From positions 369,445-433,444 of the forward strand of contig JAODTK010003876.1 of NCBI GenBank assembly GCA_026419785.1: a stretch of 64,000 nucleotides of DNA, written 5' to 3'. Position 1 is the stretch's first letter; every line of letters begins with the position of its first letter. This DNA is from Sclerodactyla briareus (lineage: Eukaryota; Echinodermata; Holothuroidea; Dendrochirotida; Sclerodactylidae). The position numbers and the translations under genes are program-made. Shown one piece after another: positions 26,541-62,262 of this stretch. The notes beneath the pieces were generated by a model. It saw only the letters and a program-made list of their open reading frames with translations. It did not search any database and was not told where the DNA came from.

Positions 26541-26541
26541 G

Positions 26542-28639
26542 TTTTTAGCTCAAACCAGCTATGCTGGTTGAGCTATTGTGATTTCCCTATCTATCCTCCT
26601 ATCTATCCAATCTATAAACTTTCGCTTTTTTGGCCCGACAAAATTGTTTGTGCGTTGTTGAATCTGGACCAGACTGGTCACAGCTGCTATTGACTGTTGG
26701 GTCATCATTGACCACCTAAAGGTCAGGTCAAATGGCATTGAAGGGCACAATGGGCCAATAAGTGGAAAACTGCAAAACGCTACTTCTCCTACAAAGTTTG
26801 GTGACGTGCTGATGTTCGGTCATAATGATGGGTCTAACAGCCGTACTTCGGGTGTTCAGGCATTTTTTATCCTGAGGGCCCATTTATGAAATTTCACACA
26901 ATGGTACTTGATGAACTCCTCCCACAAGGGCCTAACACTTGAATTACAACAAAATGTGTATCTACTACAAATTTAGTGCACAGTGCTGATGTTTGAGTCA
27001 TAATGATGGTCTAATAGACGTACTTTGGGGTGTCAGGATTTTTTACTTCCCAAGATCCGATGGGCCTGAGGTCCATTTTATGATATTTCACACATGGTGC
27101 TTGAAATGCCCATCTCCTCCTCAAAGCTTCAATTGATTTCCTCAAAGTTACATGGTAATGGTCCTTGGGTAGATTGGCCATGAGGGGTTATTCAAGATTA
27201 TGGGCCCAGGGCCAGTTTGGGACTGGGCCCATTATATGAAATACTAGTAAATCTCCTACAAATCTCGGTGCACCATGCTGAAATTCAGTCATAATGATGG
27301 TCTAATAGCTGCACCTTCAGGGTGCTCAGGGATTTGAGACCAAGGCTTAGTGTGGGCCCAAGGGCCCGCTATGGGGAATTACACAAAATGCTTCTCTCTC
27401 ACCAGTTTTAATGCACAGTACTGATGTTTCGTCAATAATGATGGTCTAAACAGTCGTAACCTTTGGGGGGCCAGGAATTTTTTCGGTCCAAGTCCCACTT
27501 GGGCCCAAGGGCCCATTCTATGAAATTACACAATGGGAGACTTGAAATGCATCCTCAAGCATATCCTTCCACAAGTACCAAAGGATTTTTTGAAGATACA
27601 GGTAATGCTCCTCGGTTAGGGGTCCATTGGGGGGGTTGCGAACAATGTGGGGGCCGCGGAGGTGCCCCAGAATGCTTTAATCAGCAAAATGCTTCTACAA
27701 AATTTGATGCACAAGTCAGGCTCAGGTTCTGGTCATAATGAGGGTATAGTGCCGTATTCAGGGTTTTCCAGGCTTTTAGGACCTGTGGCCCATTGTGGGC
27801 CCAATGGCCCATCACATGCAATCAAGCATGTTTTCCTCCTACAGTGCTGATGCTTTATCATAATGAGGAAAGTATACCAAGAACCCACTTAGGCCCTACA
27901 GCCTATCTACTCTATCAAGGTGTAACAATTGCCCCCAACAGTCATTCTGTGAGGATGTAGACCAAGCTGGACACATTGTTATTTGACTCGTGGACATGTT
28001 GACTTTGTGAAGGTCAGGGTCGAAGGTCCAAGGGGCAATATGGGCCATTATCTATAAAATTTAACAATGATCCCCTCCTCAAAAGTACATTAGATTTCTG
28101 AAACTGTGTCATATTGCTCCTTTGGAGGTGCTATTTCAGCTTGTTTGCAGATTTGGGATGCAACATTAATAGTGTTGTTAGAATTGAAAAGGTAAACATC
28201 TGATGAAAAGAAGCAAAACAGCATTCTGGGATGGAGGTGACCAAATTTGACCCCATGCTTAATTGACTTTTGTGAACTTGTGCAGGTCAAGGTCAGAGGC
28301 CACTAAAGGGGCAATAGGCCATTGTGTGAAATTGCATCTTTCCCTCAATTGGGCATCTTCCAATGGATGTTGGACTACAAGGAGCAACAAAGTTCATTGA
28401 CTGCTAATGATTTTGGGCAATATGAACACAAAAAAAAAAAAAACAAAAACCAAAAAAAAAAAAAAAAAAAAAAAAACCCCAAAAATACATTGAATTTTGT
28501 CAAAGGTTGTTACAGGGCAAAGAGGCCATGCTTGAAACTGCCTTTTGGCCTCATGATCTTGAACATATACACATAATGTACATGTATTCGTCTGTGGTGT
28601 ATTTGTTCGGTTTGAGATACAGCACCATTGTTGCTCTTG
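26542..28639 (+). mobile_element. Helentron-like non-autonomous element (HINE), copy 1, complete
   Basis: The 5' end is TTTTTAGCTCAAACC, whose TAGCTCAAACC (26546-26556) is the left subterminal inverted repeat. It lies in the hairpin AGCTCAAACCAGC-TAT-GCTGGTTGAGCT and is followed by a short CTAT/ATCC microsatellite. The core runs from about 26690 to 28500 as imperfect units. Six of them carry GTCATAATGATGGTCTAA-like phrases, near 26820, 26998, 27288, 27431, 27732 and 27856. The right repeat GGTTTGAGATA (28609-28619) pairs with the left one with one mismatch, and a 3' hairpin at 28621-28635 precedes CTTG. No ORF codes for a helicase. The structure matches HINE/DINE-like elements, which helicases supplied elsewhere mobilise. 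An A-rich stretch at 28430-28477 interrupts the core. Confidence 0.65.
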
Positions 28640-29584
28640 TTTCCCACTCTTGTTTTGTGTTTTCTATTGATCTTTAGGACTTTTTGTCTTTTTCCTGTAC
28701 TCTTTGTGATATTGTGCTATCTAAATAATTTAACATTATTTTAATTTAAATCTATTGTTGCTTGCTGATCCCGCCATTATCCTCTCCTCTCGATCTGGTA
28801 ACCCGAGCCGTTTTAACCAGTTCCGAAATCGTACCGGGGACATTTTAACCAAAGCAGAGAAACGTTTTTGACATTTTTACCTTACCGTACAACACAACCT
28901 AGCAGGAGTTTTGGTTGAACCCGGGACGTTTTGGTACACAGGGATTGTTTTGGTGAAGTACGTTTTTACTGGCAATGCGCCAACACATACTTTCCCTTGT
29001 GCAGTCTTTTTCATTCCTCAAAATTTATATCATAAATTTAATGATAAACATGAGAACCTAGGCTAGTTGACGTAGGCACCCATCCCATGTTCTACCTCTG
29101 GCGAGGGTGACGTGCGGCAAATTTGACTTGCTATGAAATTTCCACTTGCGGTGAGTTTGTCTGCAGCGAGTCTGTTTTGCGGCGAAAGGTCTTTCAATAC
29201 TTTACTATCAGTACTACTACAGGTAGCTATATGTATATTCCTTGAACAGAATTGGTGTTTCCACAAAGGTGGCGCCAGCCGGGTGGGGCAAGTGGGCCGT
29301 GCCCCCCTTGGTGAATGTTCTGCATTTCGTTGGGAGCCGAGTGGGTACGCTAACACACCCCAACGAAAGCCTATTGCAGTACAGTAATTTTTCCAACCTT
29401 CTTTAAACTTCCTATATTGAAGCCTGAAATTTTTTTGGCAGGCTCGCATGCCTCATATCTCTTGACTTACTGTTTCTCCCTTAAGGTTAAGTTAAGATCA
29501 GCGTATACATTTTCAACCAGAGGCAGTGTGCGAAATCAAGCAGTCAATAGCCAAAGCAAAGAAAATATGATAATTAAGTCATTT
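28640..29584. other. No gene recognised
   Basis: Short ORFs only. A phrase near 29270-29310 (GGCGCCAGCCGGGTGGGGCA, then GTGCCCCCC) resembles the G/C-run transposon ends seen at 1.2 and 2.1 kb. Confidence 0.35.
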
Positions 29585-29725
29585 GTGGGTGCATCGCCAC
29601 TGAATCCTGACATTTTCAGAATGCAACAGGCTCCTACTTTTTTCAAACTCTCCTACTTTTTGACTTGCCTCTCACTTCTCCTATTTTTGACTGAATAATC
29701 CTACTTTCTCTATTTTTTTAAAGTT
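29585..29725 (+). repeat. GGGTGCATCGCCAC terminus plus CTCCTACTTTTT array 1
   Basis: CATTTGTGGGTGCATCGCCAC is followed by ATGCAACAGGCTCCTAC and then six or so CTCCTACTTTTT-like units. Similar arrays lie at 32631, 59745 and 63372. Confidence 0.75.
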
Positions 29726-30398
29726 TGCTTGATGAAAAGAATCCTGAGTAATGTTCCATCACAAAAGTTCCCAGCAATAAATGCCAAAATGTAATTCTTC
29801 AGAAGTAGCTCGTCATTGCAAGTTTCAGACTGACCACCAGGACAGCCTACAAGCTCAAGCTGTCAGTATTAGTCCGCAGTATCATGCTCGCTTCCTCAGG
29901 CAGAAGTGAGTTGGTAAGAAGAGGGGGAAGCGTGTCAACTATTGCAGTAACAAAGAAGGAGAATCAGCTACCAGAGAACAAGCTGTAGTGGGAGAGGCAA
30001 CATGAACCACAGTTCTAGGGAATATGGAACCAGAGCACCAACAAGGGACCATAGAGACATTACAACAAGGGAGAGCACAAGAGCTACCCCAAGAGAAAAT
30101 AGATGCTTTGACCGACTGAATGGAAAATTACAGGCCCAGGCAATCCTCAGAGGATGGTAACAAAAAGCAGGGAACAAGCCAGTACAAGAGTACACCCTGA
30201 TTGACCATTACTGGAGGCAAGTGTTGAATCGGACAAACTCATTGGGGTCACAGCTGTATGGATATTCCAAATGGCAAGGCTCAGTGGACCTGAATCAGAC
30301 TCTCAGTTATCTGAGTCTATCAATTCTTTGAGATGGTAACGTGCAGTCAGGATCACTGGTTCTGGAACTCGCCCATGAGATGCCTGTGACCTACGCAG

Positions 30399-30857
30399 GT
30401 GAAGCTCATAGATCTGCCAGTAGTGGTATGCTGCGAGATTGCAGAAGAGGAGAGAGAAACTCCGCCAAACAGCGTCCAACATAACAAAAAGGAAAAAGAA
30501 GCCAGAGAGAAGACAAGAGACAAGGAAGCTATGGGACGAAGAAAAAATCATACTGGACAGAGAAAGGACTCTCACAAAAGAACAGGGAAACGGTGTAATG
30601 CGACATGTCTGCAGGCGAATAAGCGACTACTTAAAGCCATAAAAGACAAAGGACATGGGAGAAATCCTCTGTGTCCAAGGTCTCATAGATGTTGCCACAC
30701 CAAAAAAATGGAACGAGCCGTGAGAGGACTTGAGACTCAGGAAGACGGCAAGGAATTAGGAGAGAAACGCAGGAAAGTCATGAAATACTTTTCAACAGCT
30801 TCCGCTAGTTTGCCAAGTGACGACTTGCTGTCATGTTCATGTTCCGGCCTGTAAATG
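30399..30857 (+). CDS. Unrecognised 151-residue ORF, probably transposon-derived
   Basis: The longest clean ORF in the 29-33 kb repeat block runs from ATG 30399 to the TAA-adjacent stop after ...LLSCSCSGL. The middle is very Lys/Arg/Glu-rich (EKTRDKEAMGRRKNHTGQRK), and the C-terminal third has HRCCHTKKMERAVRGLE and RRKVMKYFSTASAS. The DNA encoding the C-terminal third has a diverged relative at about 63110-63260, so it is part of a repeated element. No domain is recognised. No promoter, splice site or family can be argued, and it could be non-coding repeat sequence. Confidence 0.3.
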
Positions 30858-31165
30858 AGTTCAGATCTGTTGATGTACATGTATTTTTTGGTTGTGATGT
30901 ACTGTATGGGTACGATAAACCCATAGGTTCAAGAGAATTACCATAAGAAAGCCATAGAAATCACAATCTATATGTCGCATTGCAGTGTAGTCAATCATAT
31001 TGGCCTATGCAATTTTTTGTAGAGTATGTGACACTTATAGTATGAAATAGGGTGAGTCACAAAGATCAGTGTCTTCACAGCAGCTGCCTAATTAACAAAC
31101 CTCACTAGTTCGTAGTTGTATAGCTCAAGGGGACAAATGTTCAATCTGGATGTGGTTATATCACT

Positions 31166-31535
31166 GTTTGAAGGAAGCAGTGGTGATAATGTCATGATAC
31201 TAGGAATGAATGAAAAGTGTATGACATTTACTACATGATTAATCACAAGGGTTTTTTTTTCAACAAATCAGGACAAAGAATTCGAAAAGGTGAATTTTGA
31301 TGCAGAAATTGTAGGGGAAAACCCAGAATGAGGATTTATGGGAAAAAATCTTTTTATTGAAATGGGATTTTAAATAAAAGGTGATGTGAGTGACTAAATG
31401 AAAAAAATTCAACACAAGCTTTTCGACAAGATGGCATTTCTGTGGATTGCCCTCTTGTCACTGTTTTGAAAGGAAGAATTGTTGACAATGTCATGACTAA
31501 TAAACAGTGTATGACATTTACTACATAAGTTTTCT
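31166..31535 (+). repeat. Direct repeat pair with TGTATGACATTTACTACAT
   Basis: Blocks at about 31166-31240 and 31456-31530 share TCACTGTTT, AATGTCATGA, AGTGTATGACATTTACTACA, with spacing of about 290 bp. Confidence 0.7.
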
Positions 31536-31689
31536 TCAATGACCTTACCGGTACCATACGATCATAATATGTAAACTTATAAAGTGCCGGTATCCGTCCG
31601 AAGACGCTCATGGCGCTGTGTGAAACGACCGGACAAAACAAAACAATAGAAATACAAAGTTACGAGTGAAACGATTGCTTAAACAGAAA

Positions 31690-32260
31690 AGTTTTGAGTG
31701 CTGACTGGGAAGCTTCGTCCATGGAGGTAGCCATTCGCCCCTGGACAGGAAAGGGCCTCGTTCCCATACGTCTGCGGCAGCATTGGCAAATGCACAGTCG
31801 CCCCACTGGTTGTTAGACCTCGCCTCAACTAGAAGTCTTTGGTTCGATGACCGGAGTGTAGCCCGACGAGGAGTGTAGAGATGGACGAGGTCCGCGAGAT
31901 GTAGGAAGGGGCACGACCGGTCAACACTTTGTAAACCAGTGTAGCCAGTTTGTAGGCAATCCGCTGCCTGACAGGAAGCCAGTGAAGGGCGGATAGCACC
32001 GGAGTGATATGTGTACGAGAGTGGTGATGTGATGATTCTCGCAGCTCTGTTCTGTAGGTGCTGCGGGCGATCAACTTGGGTTTGAGCGAAACCATGAAGG
32101 AGAGAGAGTTACAGTTATCCAGATTGATGTGGCATACGCGTGAACCAGAATTTCAGCCACATCACTGCTCAGTGTTTCCGGATCGATCCAATGTTACGCA
32201 GAGACAGATGCTCTCCTGAGCACGGGGCTATTAGCCACTGTACTCGATCCTGTTGTAGTC
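31690..32260 (-). pseudogene. L2/CR1-like LINE 3' fragment
   Basis: Minus-strand frames give LSLRNIGSIRKHLSSDVAEI and LVHAYATS, then HITPVLSALHWLPVRQRIAY and KLATLVYKVLTGRAPSYIS. The tail RSNNQWGDCAFANAAADVWE and RGPFLS ends at about 31740. This is the ordered C-terminal half of an L2/CR1 polyprotein, usually HITPVL..LHWLPV..RI.YK...L.YK.L.G.AP.Y. Frames shift between blocks, the RT active site is missing, and the copy is 5'-truncated. Confidence 0.8.
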
Positions 32261-32630
32261 TTCGTCAGTAAGTTTCAAGTCAACTTTGAAGTGGTATAAC
32301 TTATCTTGATTCTTCTAGTAATTGTCGATCTCCTTTCCAATAACTGAAGGCTGGTAGAGAAATATCACTGGAAATATTCATGCTTGTTACTACAAACTCA
32401 ACCCAAGCTATGCGCTCAGTAATTGTATGGGTGTTCAGGTATGTCTGTGGCCCTCATGTGTGAACCAATTCACATTCTCTATTGATGTGATAACAACGAG
32501 AAGAACGGGAAATGAATGTGTGATATATTGTTGTTGTTTTTTTTCAAATATGGCTGGTATGTCTGGTTGAGTACAAGGTACATCCTGCTGGTGAGTATCG
32601 ACAAAGAACTACCTCTGAGAATCAATGAAG
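32261..32630. other. No feature seen
   Basis: AT-rich spacer inside the 29-33 kb repeat block. No ORF or repeat partner was recognised. Confidence 0.35.
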
Positions 32631-32722
32631 GTCCTACTTTGCCCTCCTACTTTTCTGATCAAAATCCTACTTTCCTCCTACTTTTCAAAAATTTCCTACT
32701 TACTTTTTCTCCTACTTTTTTA
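32631..32722 (+). repeat. CTCCTACTTTT array 2
   Basis: About eight CCTACTTT/CTCCTACTTTT units in 90 bp, same strand as the arrays at 29632, 59745 and 63372. Confidence 0.8.
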
Positions 32723-32996
32723 ATTGAGCCGGTGTGATGCCTGTATTTTGTTCTTGTTATTCTACTTCACAAGGAAATTGCAGAAATTCTTATTTGAAAT
32801 TTATTTTTATAACTCAAAATTTATTTTTCGTTTCTGGCTCAATATGCGTTCCATGACAAGCCTTCACCTTTCATCATGGTAGAATGTGTTTCAGACTTTA
32901 GGAGATCGAAAAAAATGGCCTCATTCGAGTTTATAGATAAATCAGATTCAATCGGAATTCCTGATAACAATTAGGTAAGTAGAATGCAAGGATAGC

Positions 32997-33270
32997 TAGG
33001 CCTCCACAATTGGGGCAATACACCCACAAATGAGTGGAATATTGTGATTTTTTATTCTTTGACGAAGTCAGAGGATCGATGCAGTCATGACGATGTGTGT
33101 GTGTGTATGTGACGCCTATCCTTGTTAACATGATAACCCGACCCCACTTGAATGGATGGAAGTTCATACTGGTTATATGGGTTTCTTCATAATGAGTTAC
33201 ATGATCCTATTGTTTCAGGGTCAGGTCGAAGGTCATCTGAGGTCGAGAGAGGTCAAAGTCGAAGAAAAGG
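32997..33270 (+). repeat. GT/GGTCA repeat family, copy 1
   Basis: It starts with GGCAATACACCCACAAATGA, the reverse-complement relative of the 29587 terminus. Then come TTTATTCTTTGACGAAGTCA, a (GT)n run, GTGACGCC, ATGATAACCCGACCCCACTT, ATAATGAGTTACATGATCC and GGTCAGGTCGAAGGTCATCT. Copies are at 34790 and 63500. Confidence 0.75.
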
Positions 33271-33639
33271 TCAAAGAAAATTTTGTTAACGCAATAAGTC
33301 CAGATTGCCTGGCCCGATCAGGAATTGAAATTGAAATTTGGCATGCAGCTCCATTTAGGGGGATAAAGTGAAATCTATTGATTTTTGTTGTAATTCAAAG
33401 TCAGATTTTGGGGGAATTATGGCAAATGGGGAAAAAAATTAATTTGGCAATTCACTCATTTGTGCAATTGTGGGTCTGCAGATTAGGTCGGGTTGCCATG
33501 ATATGTGAAACGTATAATCAGTGACTAGTAGTACATATGTGTTCCACAGGAATTGTAGGTGGAATATTAAAAAGGGGGGTTGGGTGTGGTGGTACGTGGG
33601 GGGTAACCAGGCCACAAAATTTTGTCATATTGTAGATAT

Positions 33640-33958
33640 GTGCATTTGTATTTTTTGCCTTTGAATGCTCATGCTTCGATAGACATTGACCAGAGTTCAG
33701 GACATAATATTCATTGACTGCTGCGTGAAGATTTGGACCACCCAAAGGTGATAGGTCATTGAAGGAGCCTAATGGGCCATTGTGGAAAAAAAGATGTATC
33801 TCCTCCTGGAGTACCTCACAAATGAAGTTGTGTCTTCCGAGCTCGCTCAATGTCATCCAAGGTCGGTTAACTGAAATCATGCACAACTCAAACACATATC
33901 AGTTCACATACATATTGGAAATTGTCTGGTTGAGCTACTAAAACCATTGGTTCTCTAG
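33640..33958 (+). mobile_element. HINE copy 2, 5'-truncated
   Basis: Core phrases ATTGACTGCTG, GGTCATTGAAGGAGCCTAAT and GGGCCATTGTG match the copy-1 core. The 3' end reads CTGGTTGAGCTA (33926-33937), a hairpin AACCATTGGTT (33942-33952), CT, CTAG (33955-33958) and then TT. No 5' terminus was found. Confidence 0.6.
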
Positions 33959-33984
33959 TTATGAGAGGTAGAATAACAGGAGCA

Positions 33985-34045
33985 AGATATCGGTGGTGGC
34001 GATACACTCACAATGAGTGAAATATTGTGATTGTTCTAGCTTGCT
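33985..34045 (+). repeat. Fragment with GTGGCGATACAC terminus
   Basis: GGTGGCGATACACTCACAAT, then GAGTGAAATATTGTGATT, matches the right arm of the MITE at 13601-13851 and the block at 32997. Confidence 0.65.
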
Positions 34046-41647: not shown

Positions 41648-44621
41648 GTTAATCCAATCCTTCAATTTTTGTTCATCTTTTTTGACAATTTATCACTTGT
41701 GTTTTGGACATGATAGTAGTCAAGGGTTCTGATCATTCGCAATTTACTGTGCTTTACTCCGTGTATGTAATATGCACAGGGGTGGGGGAGGGGGTAAAAT
41801 GACTTGTGGTACATCATATAACATGAATTATTCCATTGATCCTTACGGAAATATAAACCTGTGAATCTCAGTTACAGTAGTAGTAGACTGATATTGATAG
41901 TTTATCTTGTTTGATTGTTTGTTTGTATTTATTCATAAAAGACACCAAAAATGCGAAAACACATGAAGGCAGCACATTCACAAAAATGAAGAGAAATTGC
42001 TTTCCTTCACAAGGATAGCCTTCGAAAGTCCGTAGGGGTCCTCAAGGAAACAAAAACTTAAGCATAAAAAATGTATAAGTAACCCTGCTTTTTCAGAGTC
42101 ATAAAACAATCAGAACCCACGATCCAAAATCGAAGAAAAATATTAAGAATCCTAAAATGCCTGCAAGTACCTTTTTATTGCACACTTAAACGAGTTATAA
42201 CTATCAGAGAGCTTCAATTGCGTAGGTAGGTTTGTTCCAATCATGGATAGAATTTTTATAGAATGTTTCGGCAGCTTCATGCTGAACCCGAGTACCACCA
42301 GATTAGCGACGCTGCCTCTGGTACGATACCCATGGACCGTTGAAATGGGGATGAAATGATGCTGAAGGTACGTGACTAAGACCATTTATAACTTGTATGA
42401 ACGGTTAAGTCTAAGTTGGCATACCTTTGTTGACCTCTAGAAAACCAACTTGCCCCTAAATTCTGAGGCCGTTAGGACACTCACCCTGTCCCAGGAGAGA
42501 ATATTAGAATCATTTTTTGTTAGATCTTGTTGATGTAGCCTGAGATGTCATCATACCATCTTTATTGAGTGTTGTGGGCAGATCATTCAGATCTCCGTGG
42601 AGTGTGTCCTATAGTGTAGGTGTTTGAGGGTCATCATAGATCAGTGGTATTAAATTAGTAGCCTGAATCCCTCTTAATTGATGGTTGTTGGGCTTGCTCT
42701 CAATGAGCTCCCCGATTCTGCCATTTCAGCAAGTGGGTCGTGTTCTATTTACAGTAATGAGGTAGCCAACTTGGGGATTGCCCCTGCAGCCAGCGACAAC
42801 AAGGTACTTCATTGTTCATACATACGGTGACAGTACTTGAAAAATAATTTCTGTTTGCAATTGAGATTATTGATAGTTTTAACTTAAAACAGCTCACTTG
42901 CTTTGACAGAAGTTATTCCGCGGGCCTCGGATCTCTGTTCTATCTTTGCATGCCTGTTGTGTTTCTCTGCTGTTGATATTATCAGAGGTTGAAATCAGTC
43001 CAGTGTTCAACCACGTGAAGAAAGGCCATATGTTACATGTTTTGTGGCATTGAAGGCATCACTTGGTGTGTGTTTGTCAGGCTTCTAATACAGCCTCCCC
43101 AAGTTATCAAGCTTCTTACAACCCCAGGCTATCAAACTTCTTACTGCCCCAGGTACCAAGCTTTTTACAGCCTTCCCAGGTTATCAAGCTCCTCAGAGCC
43201 GCAATGTCATCAAGCTTCTTACAGCCACCATGTTATGGAGCTATTCCTCTGCCTGCAAGTTAACAGTTTTTTAATAGCCTCCTGTTATCAAGCTTCTTAA
43301 CAGCCACCCGGTTATCAAGCTTCTTACTGCCACCAGGTTATCAAGCTTCTTACTGCCACCAGGTTATCAAGCTTCTTACTGCCACCAGGTTATCAAGCTT
43401 CTTAGAGTCTCCTGATTGTCAAGCTTTTTACAGCCTCCAGGTTATCAAGTTTCTCAACAACCGCCATGTTCATCAAGCTTCTTACAGCCCCAGGTCATCA
43501 AGCTTTTTCTACAGCCTCCAGGTTATCAAGCTTCTTACTGCCACCAGGTTATCAAGCTTCTTACTGCCACCAGGTTATCAAGCTTCTTAGAGTCTCCTGA
43601 TTGTCAAGCTTTTTACAGCCTCCAGGTTATCAAGCTTCTTACTGCCACCAGGTTATCAAGCTTCTTACTGCCACCAGGTTATCAAGCTTCTTACAGCCTC
43701 CAGGTTACATTATCAGCTTTTCACAGCCTCTAGGTTATCAAGCTTCTTACTGCCACCAGGTTATCAAGCTTCTTAGAGTCTCCTGATTGTCAAGCTTTTT
43801 ACAGCCTCCAGGTTATCAAGCTTCTTACTGCCACCAGGTTATCAAGCTTCTTACTGCCACCAGGTTATCAAGCTTCTTAGAGTCTCCTGATTGTCAAGCT
43901 TTTTACAGCCTCCAGGTTATCAAGCTTCTTACTGCCACCAGGTTATCAAGCTTCTTAGAGTCTCCTGATTGTCAAGCTTTTTACAGCCTCCAGGTTATCA
44001 AGCTTCTGACAGCCTCCAGATCATTGTGCTTCTTGCTGCTCCCATTCTCCAGCTGCTGAGAGTCTCATGATTATCAAGTTTTTTTATAACCTTCCATGTT
44101 ACATTATCAAGCTCTCACAGCCTCAAGGTTATCAAGCTTCTTAGAGTCTCCTGATTGTCAAGCTTTTTACAGCCTCCAGGTTACATTATCAGCTTTTCAC
44201 AGCCTCTAGGTTATCAAGCTTCTTAGAGTCTCCTGATTGTCAAGCTTTTTACAGCCTCCAGGTTACATTATCAGCTTTTCACAGCCTCTAGGTTATCAAG
44301 CTTCTTAGAGTCTCCTGATTGTCAAGCTTTTTACAGCCTCCAGGTTACATTATCAGCTTTTCACAGCCTCTAGGTTATCAAGCTTCTTAGAGTCTCCTGA
44401 TTGTCAAGCTTTTTACAGCCTCCAGGTTGTCAGTTCTTACAGCCTTCAGGGTATCAAGTCTGATGTTAACTAGCTATCTCTTTCTACTCCCCTCTAGTGT
44501 TTACCATGCATGACCTCATTATAGGCATGTCTCCAGTATAGCATTTCACTCAAAACAAAAGTTTTGAAAATGGCTTCATGTCCAGACACCAGTGACAATA
44601 ATTCATAAATTCTTGTTAAAG
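41648..44621 (+). other. CANT1 intron between first two recognised exons
   Basis: GT at 41648 and AG at 44620-44621 (TTGTTAAAG). The pyrimidine tract before the acceptor is weak. Most of the second half is the 26-bp minisatellite. The remainder shows no ORF or known repeat, and a poly-G tract lies at about 41781. Confidence 0.7.
43088..44455 (+). repeat. 26-bp HindIII minisatellite with higher-order repeats
   Basis: The unit is about 26 bp, CCAGGTTATCAAGCTTCTTA plus a 6-base variable part, with about 50 copies and an AAGCTT in most. Two unit classes (CTGCCA and AGAGTCTCCTGATTGT) form higher-order repeats. The AGAGTCTCCTG unit recurs at 43404, 43589, 43775, 43879 and 43957, spaced 185, 186, 104 and 78 bp. 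It then recurs at 44143, 44225, 44307 and 44389, exactly 82 bp apart. ORFs through it (SSFLQPPGYQASY) are artefacts of the array. It ends about 170 bp upstream of a CANT1 exon. Confidence 0.95.
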
Positions 44622-49162: not shown

Positions 49163-50529
49163 CAGAGAAAAATGAGTTTCATGTTAAATCTGGTCAGTGA
49201 CATCGTAATGGCGAATCCTCTGATACTAGAGTACATGTCAAGCAATGCAAAACAATATATTTTCAATAGAGGCTGGAAGTGTCTACCGTGCATTTTTACA
49301 CAACATACAGCGTAACCCATTTTATGCAGTTTCTGCACTGTTTATGATTGAAGAGCTGAACCTTGTACTCCACGAAGAAATTTGAACCCGACCTGTGGCA
49401 AGATTGCAATCTAGAAACGCCTATCATTATCGAATCGCAGCTCACAGATAGACAATCTCTAGGTTAGATAACCAAGAAATAACAGGTAACTTCTGCTGGT
49501 TGGAAGGAATGTATTTTTCATTATTTTAAGGTTTACTCATTCCAAAACCGACACGCTGTGTAGCCTAACTTTTTGTAATGTAATAGCCACTGATCACCTA
49601 TGCCAGACGGTGACCCGGCAAACATTAACCGTATTTCGAAGGCTTCTTGATACAGTTTAGGAGATATACATTTGCAATGCCACGACCTATTGTTCCATTA
49701 TCCAGAATAATAATTTTAAACATGGCACTAGGTTAGCTGCGTGGTGTTCGTTAGACCTAATATTTGACAATATGAGCGTCGCCTAGCCCTGTATTTTGTG
49801 ATCCATGACAGGCTGCAGTATTTTGCGGTTGTTTTAATGGTTGGGGTGTGTGTGGAAATTGAGCATAGCAGCGAGCGCGGGCTCTGTACAAACACATACA
49901 CAGCAGTGTGTGATATGTAGCAGTTGTTTTGTTTGCACTTCAGTAGAGTGTCAGACTGTCATTGTGCGTGCTGCGCTATGTACTGTGGACTGTATGATGT
50001 ATCATTAAAATGTTGCTGTGAGTGATGTCACAATGTCACCATAGCAACTATCCAAAACGAAGGTTGATATGTTTTTCAAGTACTTTGTGTGCTGGGCTGG
50101 TACCTGGTAAGGTACAGTTACTATGGCTGCACACCAGCTAAACAATCAGATTCTAGATGATCATAAATTCTCCTCAGGCACAGATATGCAAATTCACCCA
50201 CCCCGATGTGAATCGATACTGGTCTTGATTCAACTCTTTGGCCAATCAGATTGCAGGAAACCAATAAAGGTATTTATGAATGCATAGTCATCGCATACTA
50301 GGGGAGGCAGCTGATAACTGCATTACACGGTGACCTGCAGGGCTGTTCACCCAGTTACCTCTGCTAAACTGAAGTCTCAGCCATACCACTCCATTGTACT
50401 GAGCTATACCAGGATATTTCCAATGCAATAAGGCATATGGGACAGTACAAGTTGTTGTTAACCGGGGACCCAAGTGGCATTGCTTTTTTGCAATCACTAT
50501 GTGATCACTTCCGTGTGTGTGTAGATATG

Positions 50530-50697
50530 TACCATCTTTGGCCATATGGAGATCAAGGTCAAGGTCGTTACAGGGGCACAATAGGTCATTGTTCGAAACT
50601 GTCTCTTGGCCTCATGATCTTGAACATTTAACACTCATTTTACATTCATCCTTGGTACATTTGTGCGGTTTGAGCTACAGCACTATTGGTGCTCTAG
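50530..50697 (+). mobile_element. HINE copy 3, 3' end only
   Basis: It shares GTTACAGGGGCACAATAGG, GAAACTG, TTGGCCTCATGATCTTGAAC and then GGTTTGAGCTA (50667-50677) with copy 1. The hairpin AGCACTATTGGTGCT (50679-50693) is followed by CTAG (50694-50697) and T. This is the cleanest 3' end in the window. The 5' part is missing. It inserts about 250 bp before the last CANT1 exon. Confidence 0.7.
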
Positions 50698-50951
50698 TTT
50701 CTATGTGAGACAGGGGCTGGCAAATAATACCCACTATGACGTTCACCTTACAGATCCTGTTATTACCTGTTTTGACCCCTTATATCAATGCAACTAGGCA
50801 AAAAAATTATTACCTTAACAGAAAAAAAGAAAGAAGGAAAGGTGTGACTAGCGGTTTGAGATCCACCATCTCGCTTGTTAACCCTCTACATTGTGGAACA
50901 CTTGTGGTAATAATGCAGAGTTTGACTTAGTCTCACCCCTCTCATCGGCAG

Positions 50952-51322
50952 GTTACATGATTCATGAGTCCGGAGTCTGGAGCGATGTCCACAATCGGTG
51001 GTGTTCTCGCTTCCTCGACGAGCCAGCAGCGAGCGCTACGACGAGACGGCGGACGAGCACCGTGCCACCAACATACTCCTCTCCTGCTCCGAGGACTTCT
51101 CCGACATCCGGGCCAGCAGGGTCGGGGCGCTCAACCAGGTCCGGGGATTCTCGTCTTTCAAGTTCGTCCCAGGCACCAAGGACCAGGTCATCGTGGCGCT
51201 GAAGACCGAAGAGGACCGCGGGCAGATTGCGACTTTTGTGATGGCTTTCAACCTCAAGGGGGAGATTCTGCTGGAGGATCAGAGGTTCACGATGTCATTC
51301 CGAGGGAATTGAGTTTATATGA
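50952..51322 (+). pseudogene. CANT1: CANT1, last coding exon (two compensating frame breaks)
   Basis: Phase-1 acceptor. Frame 1 gives GYMIHESGVWSDVHNRW. After a shift at 51000-51004 another frame gives FSLPRRASSERYDETADEHR, ATNILLSCSEDFSDIR, VGALNQVRGFSSFKFVPGTK, DQVIVALKTEEDRG, then IATFVMAFNLKGEILLED. A second shift between about 51284 and 51302 restores the first frame, giving EGIEFI and TGA at 51320-51322. The family ends in exactly EGIEFI, and the Ser of GFSSFKF and the first Glu of EGIEFI are known Ca2+ ligands. Exon length (371) is in frame overall, so the two shifts cancel. The apparent stop at 51310-51312 is an artefact of the second shift. A 3' UTR probably follows, but no AATAAA was found within the first few hundred bases. 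Confidence 0.92.
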
Positions 51323-51755: not shown

Positions 51756-52512
51756 GAGGTATTGTTTCTGATGGATGGGTAGTGGATCATGCTAAGTCAG
51801 ATGGTATATCTGTAAGAGGGTAGCCTGTCTGTGAGCTGGTGGAGGGACACCACAGTGGGTCAGTTACAGGGTTGGGCACCATGGTAGAACAGGTTCTGTC
51901 TGTTAGGAGGTATTGCTTTTGATGAATGGGTAGTGGATCATGCTAGGTCAGATGGTATATCTGTAAGAGGGTAGCTTGTCTGTGAGCTGGTGAAGGGACA
52001 CAACAGTGGGTCAGATACAAGGTTGGGCACCATGGTAGAACAGTTCTGTCTGTTAGGAGGTATTGTTTTAGATGAATGGGTAGTGGATCCTCTTAGGTCA
52101 GATGGTATATCTGTAAGAGGGTAGCCTCCCTATGAGCTGGGGGAGGGGCGCCACAGTGGGTCACCAAAGTGGGTCACATACAGGGTCGGGCACCATGGTA
52201 GAACAGGTTCTGTCTGTTAGGAGGTATTGCTTTTGATGAATGGGTAGTGGATCCTGCTAAGTCAGATGGTATATCTGTAAGAGGGTAGCCTCCCATTTGA
52301 GCTGGGGGAGGGGAACCACAGTGGGTCACCACAGTGGGTCACCACAGTGGGTCACATACAGGGTCGGGCACCATGGTAGAACAGGTTCTGTCTGTTAGGA
52401 GGTATTGTTTTAGATGAATGGGTAGTGGATCATGCTAGGTCAGATGGTATATCTGTAAGAGAGTAGCATCTCAGGAACTGGGGGGAGGGGCACCACAGTG
52501 GGTCAGATACTT
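51756..52512 (+). repeat. 150-bp minisatellite with nested 14-bp repeat
   Basis: Five units aligned on GGGTAGTGGATC, with AGTGGATC at 51781, 51932, 52082, 52246 and 52424. Spacings are 151, 150, 164 and 178 bp. The longer units gain one and then two extra copies of a 14-bp ACCACAGTGGGTC-type subrepeat (clear at 52315-52353). The array lies about 430 bp after the CANT1 stop, possibly in the 3' UTR. Confidence 0.95.
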
Positions 52513-52545
52513 GTCAGAGACAGGGTCGCTTTCGATAAGTGGCTG

Positions 52546-54888: not shown

Positions 54889-56220
54889 TTAAAGGACAAC
54901 TCGGCAGGCTCAGAAACATTGGAGGTTATATGTGGGGAATGAAAAAATGTATCTAAGGGTCTAAACCTTTCAATACTATGATCCTTTGTGGAGTTATTGG
55001 CCTTCAAGTTGGTACAATATGCTGAGAAATTCGGGAGAACCCTATGCGTAAAAATGGCATGACATCAACAGTTGAACAAACACAGATAATTATGGTATGT
55101 ATTCCATTGTTTTACGTGTTAAATAACTCAACATTCTGCAAAAGTTCTGTCATCTTTTACCAAAGTAACCATCAACGCTGACCAACCTGCTGCAGCGATC
55201 CTCTCCCATAGACTAAATATTTTTCAAAGTGAAATTAGTGTGTAAATTTTATTAGAAATCGGAAGAGTATTTGCAGAGATGTGCAAGTATGATAAGTGTA
55301 GTTCAACTCTGGTTTTTGTTGTGCTTTTATGAGCCCCCCCCCCACACCCCCAATTAGATCAATTTGTAGGTGTTCTCCCATTCAAGCATGGGCTTCTACT
55401 AAGATTAAGATTCAGGTTTTTTGTTTTTATAGTCTTGCTTGTATCACGGCGCTCCTCTTTAACACTACTAGCGAATTAAAATCCCCTGGTCATTGGTATC
55501 CTGCTGAAGACCTTGCCTGCACCACCCAGGGTGCACGTTCGCCTCGCAGGTATGATACCGTTGTAGTCTTGTATCAAGGCAGCTCCTCTTAAAGGACAAC
55601 TGCAGGCTTGGATACAATGATGTTCCTATCTGGAGTTATTGCCTCCAAAGTTTGGGCCATTAGGCAGATAAATGGGGAGAATCCCAATTGCGCAATAACG
55701 TATGACGTCAAACTTGGACAACACAGGAAATCATGTCAGTATTCGATTGTTTCATTTGTTTGAAATATGCAAACATTTAAAGCAGAAATTCCGTTTCCTT
55801 CTATCCCGAATGTAACCAACACCTACCAACCCACTACAGCAATCCTCACCCATAGACTAAATGCTTTTCGAATGAATAATTTTGAATTTCAATAGAAAAA
55901 AATGAATGTTTGCAGGGTGTGCAGGATGACAACATTTATTATTCATGATGGGATGCTTTGATCTTTGCGCAAGCCCAATGGCGTCCCAATACACAAACTT
56001 AAAATGGCGATAACTCCTTAACGGAAGTCCTATGAACTTCCCGTTTGGCACTAGCGCATTCAGTTTTTATCCAGCTATTAAATAAGCCAAGTGTGAATCA
56101 TCCTGCAGTTTTTTGCCCTCTTCACACGACTAGCAAATTAATCCCCTGGTCATTGGTATCCTGCTGAAGACCTTGCCTGCACCACCCAGGGTGCACGTTC
56201 GCCTCGGCAGGTACCCCATT
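54889..56220. repeat. Tandem duplication of a 0.65-kb repeat unit
   Basis: Unit 1 (about 54889-55560) and unit 2 (about 55590-56220) both begin AAAGGACAACT(C/G).. (54891, 55591). Both end with CCCCTGGTCATTGGTATCC, then GACCTTGCCTGCACCACCC, then GGGTGCACGTTCGCCTCG, at 55483-55551 and 56143-56213. A TAGTCTTG..TATCA.GGC phrase before CTCCTCTT precedes both the SINE piece and unit 2. The final SINE-like pieces are near-identical while the interiors are more diverged. Confidence 0.75.
55591..56116. mobile_element. MITE-like element with CTGCAG inverted termini
   Basis: The left terminus AAAGGACAACTGCAGG (55591-55606) pairs imperfectly with the right CCTGCAGTTTTTTGCCCT (56102-56119). CTCTT-like sequence lies outside both ends (possible target-site duplication). 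Related copies are at 35875, 45130 and 54891. The internal phrase GGGGAGAATCCCAATTGCG is the reverse complement of one in the 45130 copy. No ORF. Confidence 0.6.
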
Positions 56221-56350
56221 TACACGTGGGCAGCGTGAAACATTCGAGGAGACATGCCTTGTCTAACAGCACTACGGAAAAAACCCTTGGTCTTTCACTG
56301 GGTTTCAAACTTGCAGTCTATTGATCTCGAGTCCGACTGAGCTAATCTGC
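56140..56350 (-). mobile_element. tRNA-derived SINE
   Basis: On the minus strand an A box TTAGCTCAGTCGG (56333-56345) and a B box AAGTTTGAAACCC (about 56300-56312) are followed by a body with GTGCTGTTAGACAAGGCATG, AAATGGGGTACCTGCCGAGG and GGTGCAGGCAAGGTC. This is the build of a tRNA-headed SINE. A headless fragment of the same body lies at 55480-55556. Confidence 0.65.
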
Positions 56351-59300
56351 CTCCCCTACTAGAAGAAACATGGAATTTGATGGTCAGTTTGCGGTCAATT
56401 AGATAAACCCAAACAACACACATTTTGTGCAATTGGTTACACAGTTGGATATATACATTCATGTTATTGATGTAACTGATGATTATATCCTATGACTAGA
56501 TCATGAGCAGGTTTTTCTCCAAGATTTCATGCTCGGCTAATATGAGAGGGTTGCCAGGTCTTGTTGGTGATATTCAGCCACGTCAATGGCGATGCTGGTG
56601 AATAGGGGCCACCATTTATGAGTCCATACACTGTACATACTGAAAGAGATACAGCACATTCTGTCAGTGTGTTAACAATATTGTGAAGATATTCATAGTG
56701 CCTATTGTGTATCGTCTAGCGCGAAGGTCACGGGTCGGAAGACCAGATTTCCAAATGGCGACAACTGGTAATTGGTTGTGCTATACTCGAGGCTGTATCA
56801 ATCCCCAGCTGTTCTGTCTTGATATTTTATCTGGTGGCTTTGTACAGGTATTTCTATTCATTGGTAGACCGGACTTGCATACTCCTCGTAATGGTAGGAA
56901 ACCCCCTCCTTCCCTTCTGCATGTATTTTATTCTATCATTTGAGATCTTTTCATTGATGGGTTATTTTATCAATCTTCCTCTATTTAACCAAAGTTTGTA
57001 AATACGCCCCCCCAAAGTACTACTGTACCAAACCCAATCTCAAAATATTTCTATTTTGATTCAGGAGTGGATATTAATAGTCGGTTGTGTTATGAAATGT
57101 TTTTTCACTCGGTATTGGGTTGGTAATCAAAAGTGTATGTTAGTATAATATACTTAACAAAGCGAGGAAAGATTTGTGCATCAGATTTCGAAGTGATTTG
57201 TAAATTATTTCTATCGAAGAAAAAATTGATCAACGAGGAATTTCAGTTGCATCACTTCCTCTTTTTAAAATGGGGTCATGTCATGGGTTGGCTCTACGGA
57301 CCTTCTTCACGTACTGAATCAATCAGCACAGTCTGGTACGTTACCAACAAACGAGGCCCACACTATAGCTCGACAGACTCGGCCACAGTTACACTAAACG
57401 ATAACGAAAAAAAATGATCACTAACACACAAACCCAGTGGCGCTGGTCACACATGAAGAATAACAATAAAATGCAAACCCCGATCGCGACCAAATGAACT
57501 GCTCGATAAACTTGAACAATGAACAATGCTGACAATCAGGGAAAGTGGACATTCGACGCACCACCCATCCAGCTCCCGGGGTTGTCATGGGCTTCCCCAC
57601 TATAGATTTCATGTTATTGCTATCGTTACAGTGTGACTGGGGCTTAACTCTTGGCAAGTCGGGTAGTACAGTTGGATGATCTTGTATAAAACTGGCACGA
57701 TTGATTGTGTGGCCTCGGTTTCTACTAGACTGTGTTCAGCTAATATAAACACACGGCAGTGAACTCAATTTTTGTGCCACTCTTTCACTGAACTTTGTAT
57801 GTAATAGTTACAATGGCAAGGCATCATTATAATGAAAATCATGGAAGAGAGGGCTTATTACCCTTTCTCAGCCAAACTTTAAGCCTGATAAGTTAAAATT
57901 ATTACTCCTCCAGAGTTGACCCCCAGTACACGGGTAATTCTTTATAGTCCATCAGTCCTACAATGTACTGTAGTAGACAACAATAGTTGATAGGAATTAC
58001 ACAGGATTAACCCTTGTCTAATCTCCTCTTAAAGGTGCTTTCATCTGTTCTCTGGAATCTTCCCTGTCATCATCTTCTTGAAGGTTGTCATGGATGGAAT
58101 ATCTAAAGGAGTAACGCCGGATACTGATTAACATGAACTTAGTTGACCCCTGTAAGCCAGTTCGAGAGTAGGGGATCACACTAAGCCAAACACACGAGAA
58201 GCTAATATTTACTTGAATACCACAAAGGTTATGATCTCTGGCCCAAATACGAAAGTTTACATATTGCGCACTAGACCGTTTCTTCTCTCTGGAATTAAGG
58301 CCAATCCTCATGCCTACCAGAGAATCAATTTACTGTTTAAGCTAATTGATGAAAAAAAACTTGAGCCGAATTTGCATTTTTTGGAATGGGAATGTGGTGT
58401 GCGGTACTCAAGCCTACAGCTGCATTGCTAATTCTGTGCAGTTTTTAGGCCCACCATCTTGAAGAATTCAACCTTTCAGTGTTTCATTGAGTTGTTAGAT
58501 GCCATGAAGATTGAAAAAAACAATGAGAAGAAAAACTTTGGACCTTTTCCCAATATAATCAGTAAATTTGGTGTCATATTGGAATATCTTCTATTCAGTT
58601 GCTTCAAAGTACACCAAATAACAAAACTTACAACAGCCAGCTGCTTGCGAAACAAGGATACCACATTCCGTGCAGATAATGATCCAGACAGCCTTCAATC
58701 ACACTAGTGCTTGAGAAACAGATAGTATTCACAGGCGTACGAGCCCCTACCATTCCCACGGAAGGGATTGGCCCTGAATTTTACCGCAGTGTTCCTCAAA
58801 AACACTAGACAATCCACCAACGACGCACAAAAAACGGGCACATGGTACCAAAACAAATTTACACTTTTTTTTTCAGGCATTTTATCAGAAAAAATATGAG
58901 CACTTGGTAGGGAATTATTTTCACTTTTGATCATCTCTGCTCGAATTTCCAACATATGCCTTAATTGCTAGTGAGAAATCTGCCCCTATTATCAACAATG
59001 CATAAAATCCATGATTTTGCTGAGTTTGAATGAAAATGTATTTATGGAATGTTTTATAAAATCTCTTCAGCAATAAAGGAAAAAAGATCTGATTTGTTAT
59101 AGAGTTATCTGTTAACATGATCTGTAAAGAAGTGTTGGAAGACGGATTGGTACTAGGTTGTTTTGTCTCGCCTGATGAAGTTACCCAGTGAGACAAAATG
59201 CCTTTTAGCATGTGTTGTGTGTGGGTGTGTGCCTGTGTGTGATGTCATACTTTTCTGTTAGAACTCCTCCAGAACCAGGGACTAATTTTTTGAAATTTTG

Positions 59301-59740
59301 TTGTATTTCGGAATTGGGGTGAAACATGTTTTGTTGTGATTCGATTGTTTAGCCCGAATGAAGGGCATTAGCTTATTTCATGTATCTCAATGTTTGAGCT
59401 TGCTTATTATTGAGAGTACGGGCAATCCGTAGATGCCGAAAGGACAGGATGTTAAGAAGAGGAACTGATTATATTCTCAGATGAAATAGGCTAATAATGA
59501 AACTACTATAATTTGCACAATTTATGCCAAAATCTAGTTCGCTGGATTCTCATGGAACTTTGTAGGTGTGGTCTACCTTAGTACCAGAAAATTTTAATTA
59601 ACAACGATTGAGGGATACTGGAGTCATTCAATGTGTCCGATTAATTCAAGGTGTGTCCAGATTATTTGAGATGATTGAAGTCAGAGGAATGGGAACTGGA
59701 GGTCAAATAAATTGTGTCTAATTTGCAGGGATGGATGCAA
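56351..59740. other. Intergenic tract, no gene recognised
   Basis: 3.4 kb with scattered short ORFs, none with a recognisable family. GT-rich sequence near 59205-59240. No repeat partner was identified with confidence. Confidence 0.4.
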
Positions 59741-59846
59741 CAGGCTCCTACTTTTTAACTCTCCTACTTTTTGCCATGCCTCCTACTTCTCCTACATTTT
59801 CCTTGAGAAAATACTACTTTTCTCGACTTTCTCCTACTTTTTTCAA
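59741..59846 (+). repeat. CTCCTACTTTTT array 3
   Basis: ATGCAACAGGCTCCTACTTT, as at 29620, then about seven units. As in array 1, a TTGCAGGTCCAGACTGACC-like phrase follows about 90 bp downstream (59928; compare 29816). Confidence 0.8.
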
Positions 59847-60250
59847 TGTGTGCCTAAAAAAAAAATACAACAAAATTTTCCCACATTTTAAACACGTCCG
59901 CAAATGTTATTCTAGGAGCAGCTAGGCATTGCAGGTCCAGACTGACCGAAGGACGACTACCACCCAAACTGACGGATGGAGAGGAACTACCAGAACATTG
60001 TCTACTCTGAAAATGGGGGTCCTTCCGGAATGTAGCTGTACAGTGGAAGTGCCAGTGAGAAACCTGTAATCTCAAACCGTACAATGTACCAAAATGTATT
60101 GCAAGAGACCAACTGTGGTATTATTTGGTTTGTTTTATAGAGAACACCCAATTGCTGTTTGTAGGGAGATCCATTTTAGCTCGAGCCAGCTAGGCCTATG
60201 CCGGTTAATCTGGATGCATTCTATCTTTATCCATCCATCTAGGGATCTAT

Positions 60251-62262
60251 GCTTTTTTAGTTCAAACCAGTTATCTGGTGAACCATTACGAGCCAGCTGC
60301 ATTCTGTCTATCCATCCATCCATCTATCCCATCCCCTCTATCCATCCCATCCATCCATCTATCCATCCCATGATCTATCATCCAATCATCATCGATCCCA
60401 TCCAGCCACCTATCTATCCCTCCAGCCATCAATCCCCCCATTCATCTCATCCATCTGTCCTCCCATCCATCTATTCTCCCATCCATCATCCATGCATCCC
60501 AGCCATCGATCCATCCATCCAGCTATCCATCCCTCCATTCTCTCTATCCATGCATCCCATCCATCTATCCATCCCATCCATCTATCTATCCATTCATCCC
60601 ATCCATCTATCCTCCCATCCATCTCTCATCCCACCAACTATCCAGCATCCCATCCATCTATCCATGCATCCCATGCATCTATACATCCATCTATCCTCCC
60701 CTCCATCTATCCATCCTCCAATCCATCCAGCCATCCATCTATCCATCCCATCCAGCCATCTATCCACCCCATTCCTCCCATCCATTTCCTCTCTCCAGCC
60801 GATCTATCCAACCCATCCATCCCTCTATCCATTCCATTCATCGATCCATCCCATCCATTATCCATGCTCCCATCCTCTATCCTTTTATCACATCTATCCA
60901 TCCCATCCATCTCGTCATCCCTTCTCTGTCCATTCCTTCCATTCTGTCCCTGCAGCCCCTCCCAAAATGTATCTCGCCTACAAAGTGCATTAGAATTGAT
61001 CTATGTCCTTGCGTGGTGGGTTTTCAGCTTGGTTCACATATTTTTTTGATGTTGCGTCGTTAAGCCATTGGAGTTACAACAGTAATCATCTGGTGGAAAG
61101 AAGCTTTATGGGCCTCCAAATAGTCAGTGTCATTGACCTCCGGGGCATCTTTGACTACGTGAGTGTCAAAGGTCGTTGAAGAGGCACAATATACCATTGT
61201 GTGAAATTGCCTTTTCTCTGTCCCAATTGGCCATGCATTCTTTGATGGCTGCCTGACCAATTTGGACCAATGTTTCATTGACTCCTGGGGCAGCTTTGAC
61301 CCATGGAAAGTCCAAAGGTTTATTGAAGGGGCACTAGGTGTCATTGTGTGAAGTTAGCCTTTTTGGCCGAATTGTTTCATAGCTTGGAATTGATGATCTT
61401 TGGATGTTGACCCCTGGTTTTGGGGAAGAATCAAGCTTAGAGTCATAAAAGGGGGCACAATAGGCCATTGTGGTGATTGCCATATGGCTCTCAATTATAT
61501 CCTTCTGTGATGTGTATGTTGACCAACATAGGTACAATGTTGAATGCTGGGGCATGTTTGACCTTGTCATGGTCAATTCCAAGGGCCATTGGGGACAATG
61601 GCCATTATGTAAATTGCCTTCTTTCCCACCAATTTGTTATTCTTCGATGGAATGTTAACCAAATGTGGAAACAAGTTCATTGATCTCTGGTGGTAAACAT
61701 TGCCATGTAAAAGTTAGAGATACAATCAGTGATTATGTTGGAATGAATTTTGGCCGCCAGATGGTCATTCTTTGAATGTACACAATGTTCATTGACTGCT
61801 TGTCATTGAAGGGACCAAACAGCCTTTGTGGAATGCAAATGCATCTCCTACAAAAGGCATACACTTTCTCGAATTTGTACCATGTTTCTAGAGCGTTACC
61901 TCTTTCACATGTTTATTTATAAAGAAACCTTTGATAGGACAGTTGAATTAGCTGTTTTGTGAAACATTGCAAAAATTCATCTCTCCCTTATACAAGAGCA
62001 TTTAGAAGTTCTTGAACATTGAACCCCTAACTGCACATTGATCCTCTTCGCAATGAAATTTTGGTAAATTGGGTGGTTTGACCCGCTCCACCATTGGTGC
62101 TCTTCTTTGTAGAAAAAATGAACAACATTTGAGTTAATCTGGCATTGTGTGGAGTCTTGTGAAAATTAATTGGATGTTCTTGACATTCAACACTATCTGC
62201 ACCATGGTCTCTTTGCAATGAATATTGATACATTTGTATGGTTGGAGCTTCAGCAAAACCAG
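60251..62262 (+). mobile_element. HINE copy 4 with expanded microsatellite
   Basis: The 5' end TTTTTTAGTTCAAACC (TAGTTCAAACC at 60258-60268) lies in a hairpin with GGTGAAC. The ATCC microsatellite (60300-60950) follows. The core (about 61055-62040) has units with GGTC(G/A)TTGAAGAGGCACAAT, GGCCATTGTG, and TTCATTGACTCCTGGGGCA. Two 3'-end-like segments occur: GGTTTGACCC then CACCATTGGTG (62073-62099), and GGTTGGAGCTTCAGC (62230-62244). This suggests a duplicated terminus. No helicase coding. Confidence 0.6.
60300..60950 (+). repeat. (ATCC)n microsatellite, about 650 bp, interrupted
   Basis: Imperfect CCATCCAT/CTATCCATC repeats. The 299-residue ORF across it (IHPSIHPIHPS) is the repeat translated and is not a protein gene. 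Confidence 0.97.

Follow-up and report, generated by a model that had tools for sequence, protein, structure and literature searches.

A high-copy repeat family of Sclerodactyla briareus with the anatomy of non-autonomous Helentrons

A stretch of 64,000 nucleotides from the holothurian Sclerodactyla briareus (assembly GCA_026419785.1, contig JAODTK010003876.1, positions 369,445 to 433,444 of the forward strand; hereafter the window) carries several copies of an interspersed repeat which an earlier note, made from the sequence alone, had taken for a family mobilised by Helentrons. This reading was supported. The repeat is very probably a real high-copy family of non-autonomous Helentrons (HINEs) of the DINE-1/Cg_HINE type, non-coding and mobilised in trans, with the qualification that a partner with both ends was missing and that two of the four copies named in the note were without the full set of features. 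The ends of the family read, in order, TTTTTAGCTCAAACC ... GGTTTGAGCTAC-hairpin-CTAG. The complete layout consists of a T-run, subterminal inverted repeats (subTIRs) of 11 bp, a 5' hairpin, a tetranucleotide microsatellite, a degenerate core, a 3' hairpin, CTAG or CTTG, and Ts. The copies in the window and the parts of the first of them are as follows.

26542 to 28641, plus strand: copy 1, very probably a complete non-autonomous Helentron (HINE) of 2.1 kb, from 5' and 3' profile matches
26546 to 26575, plus strand: 5' hairpin of copy 1, composed of the subTIR TAGCTCAAACC (26546-26556), a TAT loop and an inverted repeat ending in GGTTGAGCTA (26566-26575)
26588 to 26616, plus strand: short TATC/ATCC microsatellite of copy 1, read from the sequence
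26703 to 28405, plus strand: degenerate tandem core of copy 1, with two recurring motifs
28430 to 28485, plus strand: A-rich stretch interrupting copy 1, from Tandem Repeats Finder (TRF)
28609 to 28642, plus strand: 3' terminus of copy 1, with the subTIR GGTTTGAGATA at 28609 (one mismatch), the hairpin AGCACC-ATT-GTTGCT, CTTG and then Ts
33643 to 33960, plus strand: copy 2, 5'-truncated, of the variant 3' hairpin class AACC-ATT-GGTT, with CTAG at 33955-33958
50528 to 50699, plus strand: copy 3, a 3'-end fragment with the subTIR at 50667-50677, the hairpin AGCACT-ATT-GGTGCT and CTAG at 50694-50697
60174 to 60241, plus strand: a second, weaker 5'-end-like sequence just upstream of copy 4 (15.7 bits, E 1e-4)
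60254 to 62106 or 62275, plus strand: copy 4, a degraded long copy with an ATCC microsatellite of about 600 bp (60310-60911) and core units at 61129-61802
62661 to 63082, minus strand: copy 5, a 5' end and part of the core, with the 5' terminus at 63082, from profile matches

The family described in the earlier note is real, but a fifth copy, on the minus strand with its 5' end at 63082, had been overlooked. Copy 1 showed the predicted 5' hairpin with TAGCTCAAACC followed by the microsatellite, as well as GGTTTGAGATA near the 3' end, and the predicted 3' hairpin followed by CTTG or CTAG and then T was seen at the ends at 28639, 33958 and 50697. The four copies had been described as sharing a 5' hairpin and microsatellite. 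This held for two of them, copy 1 with the full anatomy and copy 4 as a degraded whole form (60254-~62275); the 5' hairpin and microsatellite ascribed to copies 2 and 3 do not exist, both copies being 5'-truncated, with matches in the window that start at positions 90 and 167 of the 5' profile. The end profiles were built from 50 5' and 48 3' ends, among them copies 1, 3 and 5, so that the matches of these three are partly circular: copy 1 gave 205 bits at the 5' end (26542-26794) and 106 bits at the 3' end (28495-28641), copy 3 gave 156 bits at its 3' end, and copy 5 gave 111 bits (63081-62888) and 23 bits (62720-62661). Copies 2 and 4 were left out of the profiles. Copy 2 matched at 33643-33808 (59 bits) and 33820-33960 (26 bits), with an identity to the consensus of 0.75 over the last 60 bp, and copy 4 gave two 3'-end-like matches (62006-62106 and 62138-62275) and two 5'-end-like matches (from 60174 and 60254), all of them weak (16-28 bits). 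The termini of copy 1 lie at 26542 (TTTTTAGCTCAAACCAGCTATGCTGGTTGAGCTA) and near 28641 (GGTTTGAGATACAGCACCATTGTTGCTCTTG, followed by Ts). With the self match excluded, genome matches to it begin no earlier than query position 38 (26537), and most of the long ones begin at 42-43 (26541-26542). The A-rich stretch of copy 1 is missing from most other copies, which match to about query position 287 and resume at about 358 with a few subject bases between.

With up to two mismatches allowed, the 30-nt 5' hairpin was matched at 456 places in the genome (319 Mb, 3,171 contigs), and with up to one mismatch the 31-nt 3' end was matched at 496; the reversed-pattern controls gave none in either search. 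Both numbers are lower bounds, as divergent copies escape the patterns. Twenty of the best 40 5' places, 20 of the best 40 3' places, five further stretches and small loci cut by the searches were fetched, and 40 genome places were scored with copy 3; overlapping loci (L001, L002, L003, L007, L009, L010, L059, and L064) were excluded from the local counts, and L006, which has one 3' end, is absent from the boundary T counts and the profiles. Median divergence from the consensus was 10.8% in the 48 3' ends and 21.3% in the 50 5' ends, in a sample picked by likeness to the window copies, so that the true spread is wider. In 27 copies a 5' and a 3' end are paired on one strand over 575-3402 bp, a few of them with degraded 5' ends. 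Flanks differ among these paired copies, the exceptions being nested or composite ones. In L014, L022, and L028 two 5' ends lie 2.0-2.7 kb apart and an alignment of 1.3-1.5 kb is common to the sequence upstream of the second; this seems to be a composite element that was copied as a unit.

At least 11 identical base pairs in the 5' and the 3' subTIR, a property of HINEs, are present in the consensus, in which the 5' subTIR TAGCTCAAACC and the 3' subTIR GGTTTGAGCTA are exact reverse complements of each other over 11 bp (50 5' and 48 3' ends). In the paired copies, both subTIRs are exact in 6 of 27, and 13 of 27 have at most one mismatch in all. The short inverted repeat that accompanies the 5' subTIR of HINEs was also found, GGTTGAGCTA lying 9 nt further in, and the DNA fold of the 5' end (-11.5 kcal/mol) was equalled by none of 200 shuffles. 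The note had placed the 5' boundary at TTTTTAG, and this boundary is indeed sharp: T occupies 83-96% of the five positions before AGCTC and 35% of the sixth (48 ends). The sharp fall at the sixth position suggests that the five Ts belong to the element. At the other end, the proposed boundary CTAG^T proved to be CTAG or CTTG followed by T, which occupies the next four positions in 98%, 93%, 70%, and 52% of 44 ends, an excess which fades gradually, as expected of a T-rich target.

The microsatellite of the 5' module (at least two consecutive TATC, ATCC or ATCT) was found within 150 nt of 42 of the 50 local 5' ends. It is followed by core units with two recurring motifs, so that the microsatellite and central tandem units of HINEs are both present, the units being degenerate; TRF detected no array in L028, and in L051 it reported a TCTG microsatellite and nothing else. 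The core also carries TCAAGGTCA (window positions 28287 and 50553), which occurs 23 times in 44 kb of elements against 3 times in 25 kb of flanks, the first-order Markov expectation for the 44 kb being 0.6. We take TCAAGGTCA to be the consensus of ERR/NR5A nuclear-receptor half-sites; the half-sites are putative, and shared descent would explain their excess. As is usual for HINEs, the copies encode no transposition proteins as judged by stop-free stretches and PF14214. The longest stop-free stretch is 92 amino acids in copy 1 and at most 186 amino acids in the 27 paired copies, and none of the three genome matches to PF14214 falls within these copies.

The 3' end consists of the subTIR, one base, a hairpin with a 6-bp stem and mostly an ATT loop, and CTAG or CTTG, which corresponds to the 3' palindrome or stem-loop of HINEs. 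Of the 264 stem cells in the 44 local ends, 242 are paired, and 39 of the ends have an ATT loop; CTAG was found in 13 of the 44 and CTTG in 16, and by eye in 66 and 30, respectively, of 100 genome places. These 100 are the first listed of the 496 places and are exact matches to a pattern that fixes all but the N positions. An earlier hairpin alignment was biased, as it held 34 of 38 distinct local forms, omitted four with indels in or after the hairpin, and included one window row and three genome rows chosen for stem variation; all 44 local ends and the 100 listed places were used for the recount. In the 100 places the stem pair N2-N5 is CG in 79, AT in 15, TG in 1 and unpaired in 5, against a mean of 70.6 and a maximum of 81 paired in shuffles. 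The covariation rests on this one pair, because N3-N4 (94 against 93.2) and the outer N1 pair (79 against 79) do not exceed their shuffles. Thirteen of the 15 AT rows carry one and the same hairpin sequence, and the change from CG to AT is perhaps a single event inherited by many copies. Eight ends were compared with the consensus over the last 60 bp, and identity was 75-77% for the AT class (copy 2, L027, and L029) and 84-97% for the five ends of AGCAC type. With the limit of 80% proposed for subfamilies in a part of PMC4067079, the AT hairpin class looks like a subfamily as judged from these alignments.

The earlier note expected no target-site duplication. Outside the T-runs, none of the 27 paired elements is bordered by direct repeats of at least 3 bp, against 0.35 with shuffled pairing of the flanks; shorter repeats, of 1-2 bp, are present but carry no information. 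One nested insertion offered an empty site for comparison. The element in L015 (1166-3109) lies within a core unit of another copy, and the uninserted core units of L026, L044, L031, and L020 align through its junction without a duplication. Its body, AGCTC..CTTG, stands in a tract of six Ts, and six Ts are also present in the units of L026, L031, and L020. If the Ts are the target, the site fits insertion without target-site duplication. Together with the T-rich boundaries and the flanks of the 27 elements, this one empty site agrees with the insertion of HINEs into T-rich or TT sites without such a duplication. At L037, the flanks match left and right repeats separately, and C872 and C883 have both in the same order about 3 kb apart; L037 probably lies inside a larger repeat that was copied together with the element. 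The window sequence 32903-32963, tried as an empty site for L028, has neither the T-run nor the right flank and was not counted.

The note had also proposed a search for a Rep-helicase element with the same termini. A Helentron-type Rep remnant was found behind a 5' end of the family, but neither a 3' end nor a helicase was found with it. The three genome matches to PF14214 are all above the cut-off, two of them adjoining on C2413 and one on C2926. The C2413 Rep gene is broken, because its two matches (E 3.2e-9 and 2.8e-11) lie in different frames. Its motif, IEFQQRGSPHAH, carries the S between G and P which, in an excerpt of PMC4067079, is diagnostic of Helentrons, the L being that of Helitrons. 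On the plus strand of this locus lie a family 5' end (L054:4109, 169 bits) and two stretches of homology to family copies (4101-5776 and 6825-7379). The Rep frame, on the same strand, begins at 7598, 3.5 kb downstream of the 5' end and just past the core repeats (about 220 bp), with no 3' terminus between. A second copy of the Rep region was not found in the genome, either with the frame or with the DNA. The C2926 match (127103-127219) is a 39-residue fragment with the Helentron S and a stop at the motif. About 5.3 kb from this fragment lies a parvovirus-NS1-like frame (L056:2132-2791; Parvo_NS1 E 2.4e-14).

Several observations weigh against the classification as a HINE family or against its link to a Rep. 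Folds of the lone 34-nt 3' end were moderately better than those of shuffled sequences, 8 and 23 of 200 shuffles folding equally well. The flanks are also compatible with duplications of 1-2 bp or of Ts only. A single empty site was resolved and it is paralogous; its fourth uninserted unit, L044, has five Ts, and between L015 and L026 the 5' side shows one gap and one base change (GGA against TA). Should the five Ts be part of the element, the target would have lost a few bases there. The joined flanks of L037 gave no empty site among the 43 matches listed (40 of 81 candidates scored). No family 3' terminus occurs in the 10 kb after the C2413 Rep, no helicase was found with it, and another copy of the family ends 0.75 kb upstream of the family 5' end there. 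The 18 kb fetched around the C2926 fragment hold no family end. A PIF1 search gave one fragment with two stops elsewhere, in 3.3 kb of surrounding sequence that holds no family end, and a DUF6570 search was empty, as were its controls.

These observations have to be set against other explanations of the repeat. Inverted 11-mers at opposite ends with Ts on both sides can be read as terminal inverted repeats and a TT duplication, that is, as a miniature inverted-repeat transposable element (MITE) of a cut-and-paste (DDE) transposon, which would have terminal inverted repeats and a TA or TT target-site duplication; DINE-1 was itself once read in this way, according to a passage of PMC2374699. The 3' inverted repeat is subterminal, however, being separated from the end by a 15-nt hairpin and CTAG or CTTG; the termini are not those of a MITE, and duplications of at least 3 bp adjoining the element outside the T-runs were seen in none of the 27 copies. 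The flanks taken alone would also agree with a duplication made up of Ts, but the T count is equal in the empty and the filled site, and we consider a MITE very unlikely. A canonical Helitron (HLE1), with 5'-TC, CTRR-3' and insertion between A and T, would account for a 3' hairpin followed by CTAG at the places counted above. It would not account for a 5' end made of a T-run and AGCTC (TTTTTAGCTC) instead of TC, for a T-run as the target, for CTTG, which is not CTRR, at the places where it was counted above, or for the subTIRs. Moreover, the hairpin abuts CTAG, whereas in Helraiser it lies about 11 nt from the end (PMC4778049, in part), and both Rep remnants have the Helentron S and not L; a canonical Helitron is even less likely than a MITE. 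The core units and the microsatellite are satellite-like, as they would be in dispersed satellite or microsatellite arrays without mobility that owe their likeness to tandem repeat turnover. Fixed termini, differing flanks at paired copies and a nested insertion with its empty site point instead to transposition and make such arrays barely credible.

Whether the C2413 Rep remnant belongs to the family is a much closer question. We put at slightly better than even the chance that it is what remains of the autonomous partner of the family: the 5' end, the core and the Rep are on the same strand with no 3' terminus between, and the core repeats stop about 220 bp short of the Rep frame. The probability of meeting a 5' end on the same strand within 3.5 kb by chance would be about 0.25-1% if the ends (456 pattern matches to 1,792 unscored first-look 5' candidates) were evenly spread, which does not hold. 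Almost as probably, the remnant is a Helentron relic of no relation to the family, with a HINE beside it by accident. The lack of a family 3' end behind the Rep, the gap of roughly 220 bp that separates the open frame from the last core homology, the local clustering indicated by the second HINE 0.75 kb upstream, the single copy of the Rep region in the genome, and the other Helentron-type Rep fragment, on C2926, without a family end all speak for such a relic.

By analogy with the published Helitron/Helentron model, the mobilisation of these HINEs would proceed as follows. The Rep (HUH endonuclease) of a rolling-circle Rep/helicase would nick beside the T-run and 5' hairpin, and one strand would be displaced through the microsatellite and core. 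Replication would halt at the 3' hairpin acting as a terminator, and the displaced strand would then be joined into a T-rich target without a target-site duplication. The family itself is probably immobile today.

A microsatellite followed by core repeats is also the layout of the pearl elements of bivalves, which the family resembles in this arrangement. Helraiser, which has L in place of S in RGxPHAH, aligns as RGLPHAH, although weakly (E 0.043), and is not known to have subTIRs. The sections of PMC7492417 on Cg_HINE of Crassostrea gigas describe a 5' subTIR of 11-12 bp with a complementary inverted repeat, a mostly 4-nt microsatellite, an array of satellite-like units, a 3' subTIR with a palindrome, and a T-rich target without target-site duplication, all as in the present family, whose core is degenerate and not a clean array; this comparison is one of descriptions. 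The autonomous elements of the oyster could not be related to its HINEs in the same sections, whereas here a Rep remnant lies directly behind a 5' module and core. The DINE-1/HINE elements of Drosophila and a mite, in the excerpts of PMC4067079 and PMC2374699, have in common with the family the subTIRs, the short inverted repeat at the 5' subTIR, the microsatellite, the central repeats, the 3' stem-loop, the TT preference and the border Ts. They differ in the length of the subTIR (13 bp in DINE-1 and 12-15 bp in mite HINEs against 11 bp), in the microsatellite (GTCY against TATC/ATCC) and in the distance of the 3' subTIR from the end (38-60 nt in mite HINEs against about 20-22 nt). Helraiser, as far as described in part of PMC4778049, likewise has a hairpin close to a 3' CTAG end, which was demonstrated to be a terminator, and an ATT loop, and differs in its 5'-TC end and in a hairpin 11 nt from the end; exchange of its stem kept about 90% of the activity, and a loop changed together with the pair at its base acted like deletion of the hairpin. 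The ATT loop common to both is a three-base match and can be chance. No description of the family was found among the matches listed in the literature on Helentrons and HINEs, on Helitron hairpins and on the two 11-mers, the last being unrelated by title and abstract opening; the family may be named in Repbase, and Helentrons as a kind are already known.

HINEs with satellite-like cores have been proposed as a source of satellite DNA, and their partners could not be named in the oyster; the Rep remnant found immediately after such a core offers a lead on them. It is conceivable, although we think it improbable, that the C2413 Rep is the dead parent of the whole family, that the satellite-like core was its own, and that a terminator rule that reads the loop is common to Helitrons and Helentrons. 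The family would then be a stranded lineage with several hundred well-kept ends and no working partner, and its terminator would have kept the ATT loop (seen at 39 of 44 ends) through a switch in one stem pair, in parallel with the loop and stem results on Helraiser. The several hundred ends are material for testing terminator and subTIR rules; otherwise the family is an ordinary transposon family.

Further sequences were noticed beside the copies. Copy 3 is followed, after about 270 bp, by an exon-like frame (50968-51309) that matches a soluble calcium-activated nucleotidase (apyrase; E 1.2e-30), and given this frame the copy may be located in an intron. TRF found tandem arrays in the window at 43089-44458 (26-bp unit, about 52 copies) and at 51756-52505 (overlapping arrays with periods of 151 and 178). 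By eye, 33020-33049 and 34004-34039 have an ACACYCACAA-ATGAGTG-AATATTGTGATT-like sequence in common, the latter ending in CTAG. The former is about 60 bp beyond 32903-32963, the stretch with a match to the repeat that precedes the inner 5' end of L028, and the two are possibly the end of another element. A second repeat starts with TTTTGTCTCGCCTGAACNAAGTTCAGGAAGAGACTT, a nested hairpin, at L029:1871, L005:2101, L033:1875, L004:719, and L031:3756. It is followed by (TG)n in L005 and L033, and in L029 its start lies within the 3' T-run of a HINE. This start had 149 matches in the genome at up to three mismatches (control 0), and 17 of 100 listed places read, by eye, CTGAAT-GAA-ATTCAG, a paired change of the stem. 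The second repeat looks like another Helentron-type 5' end.

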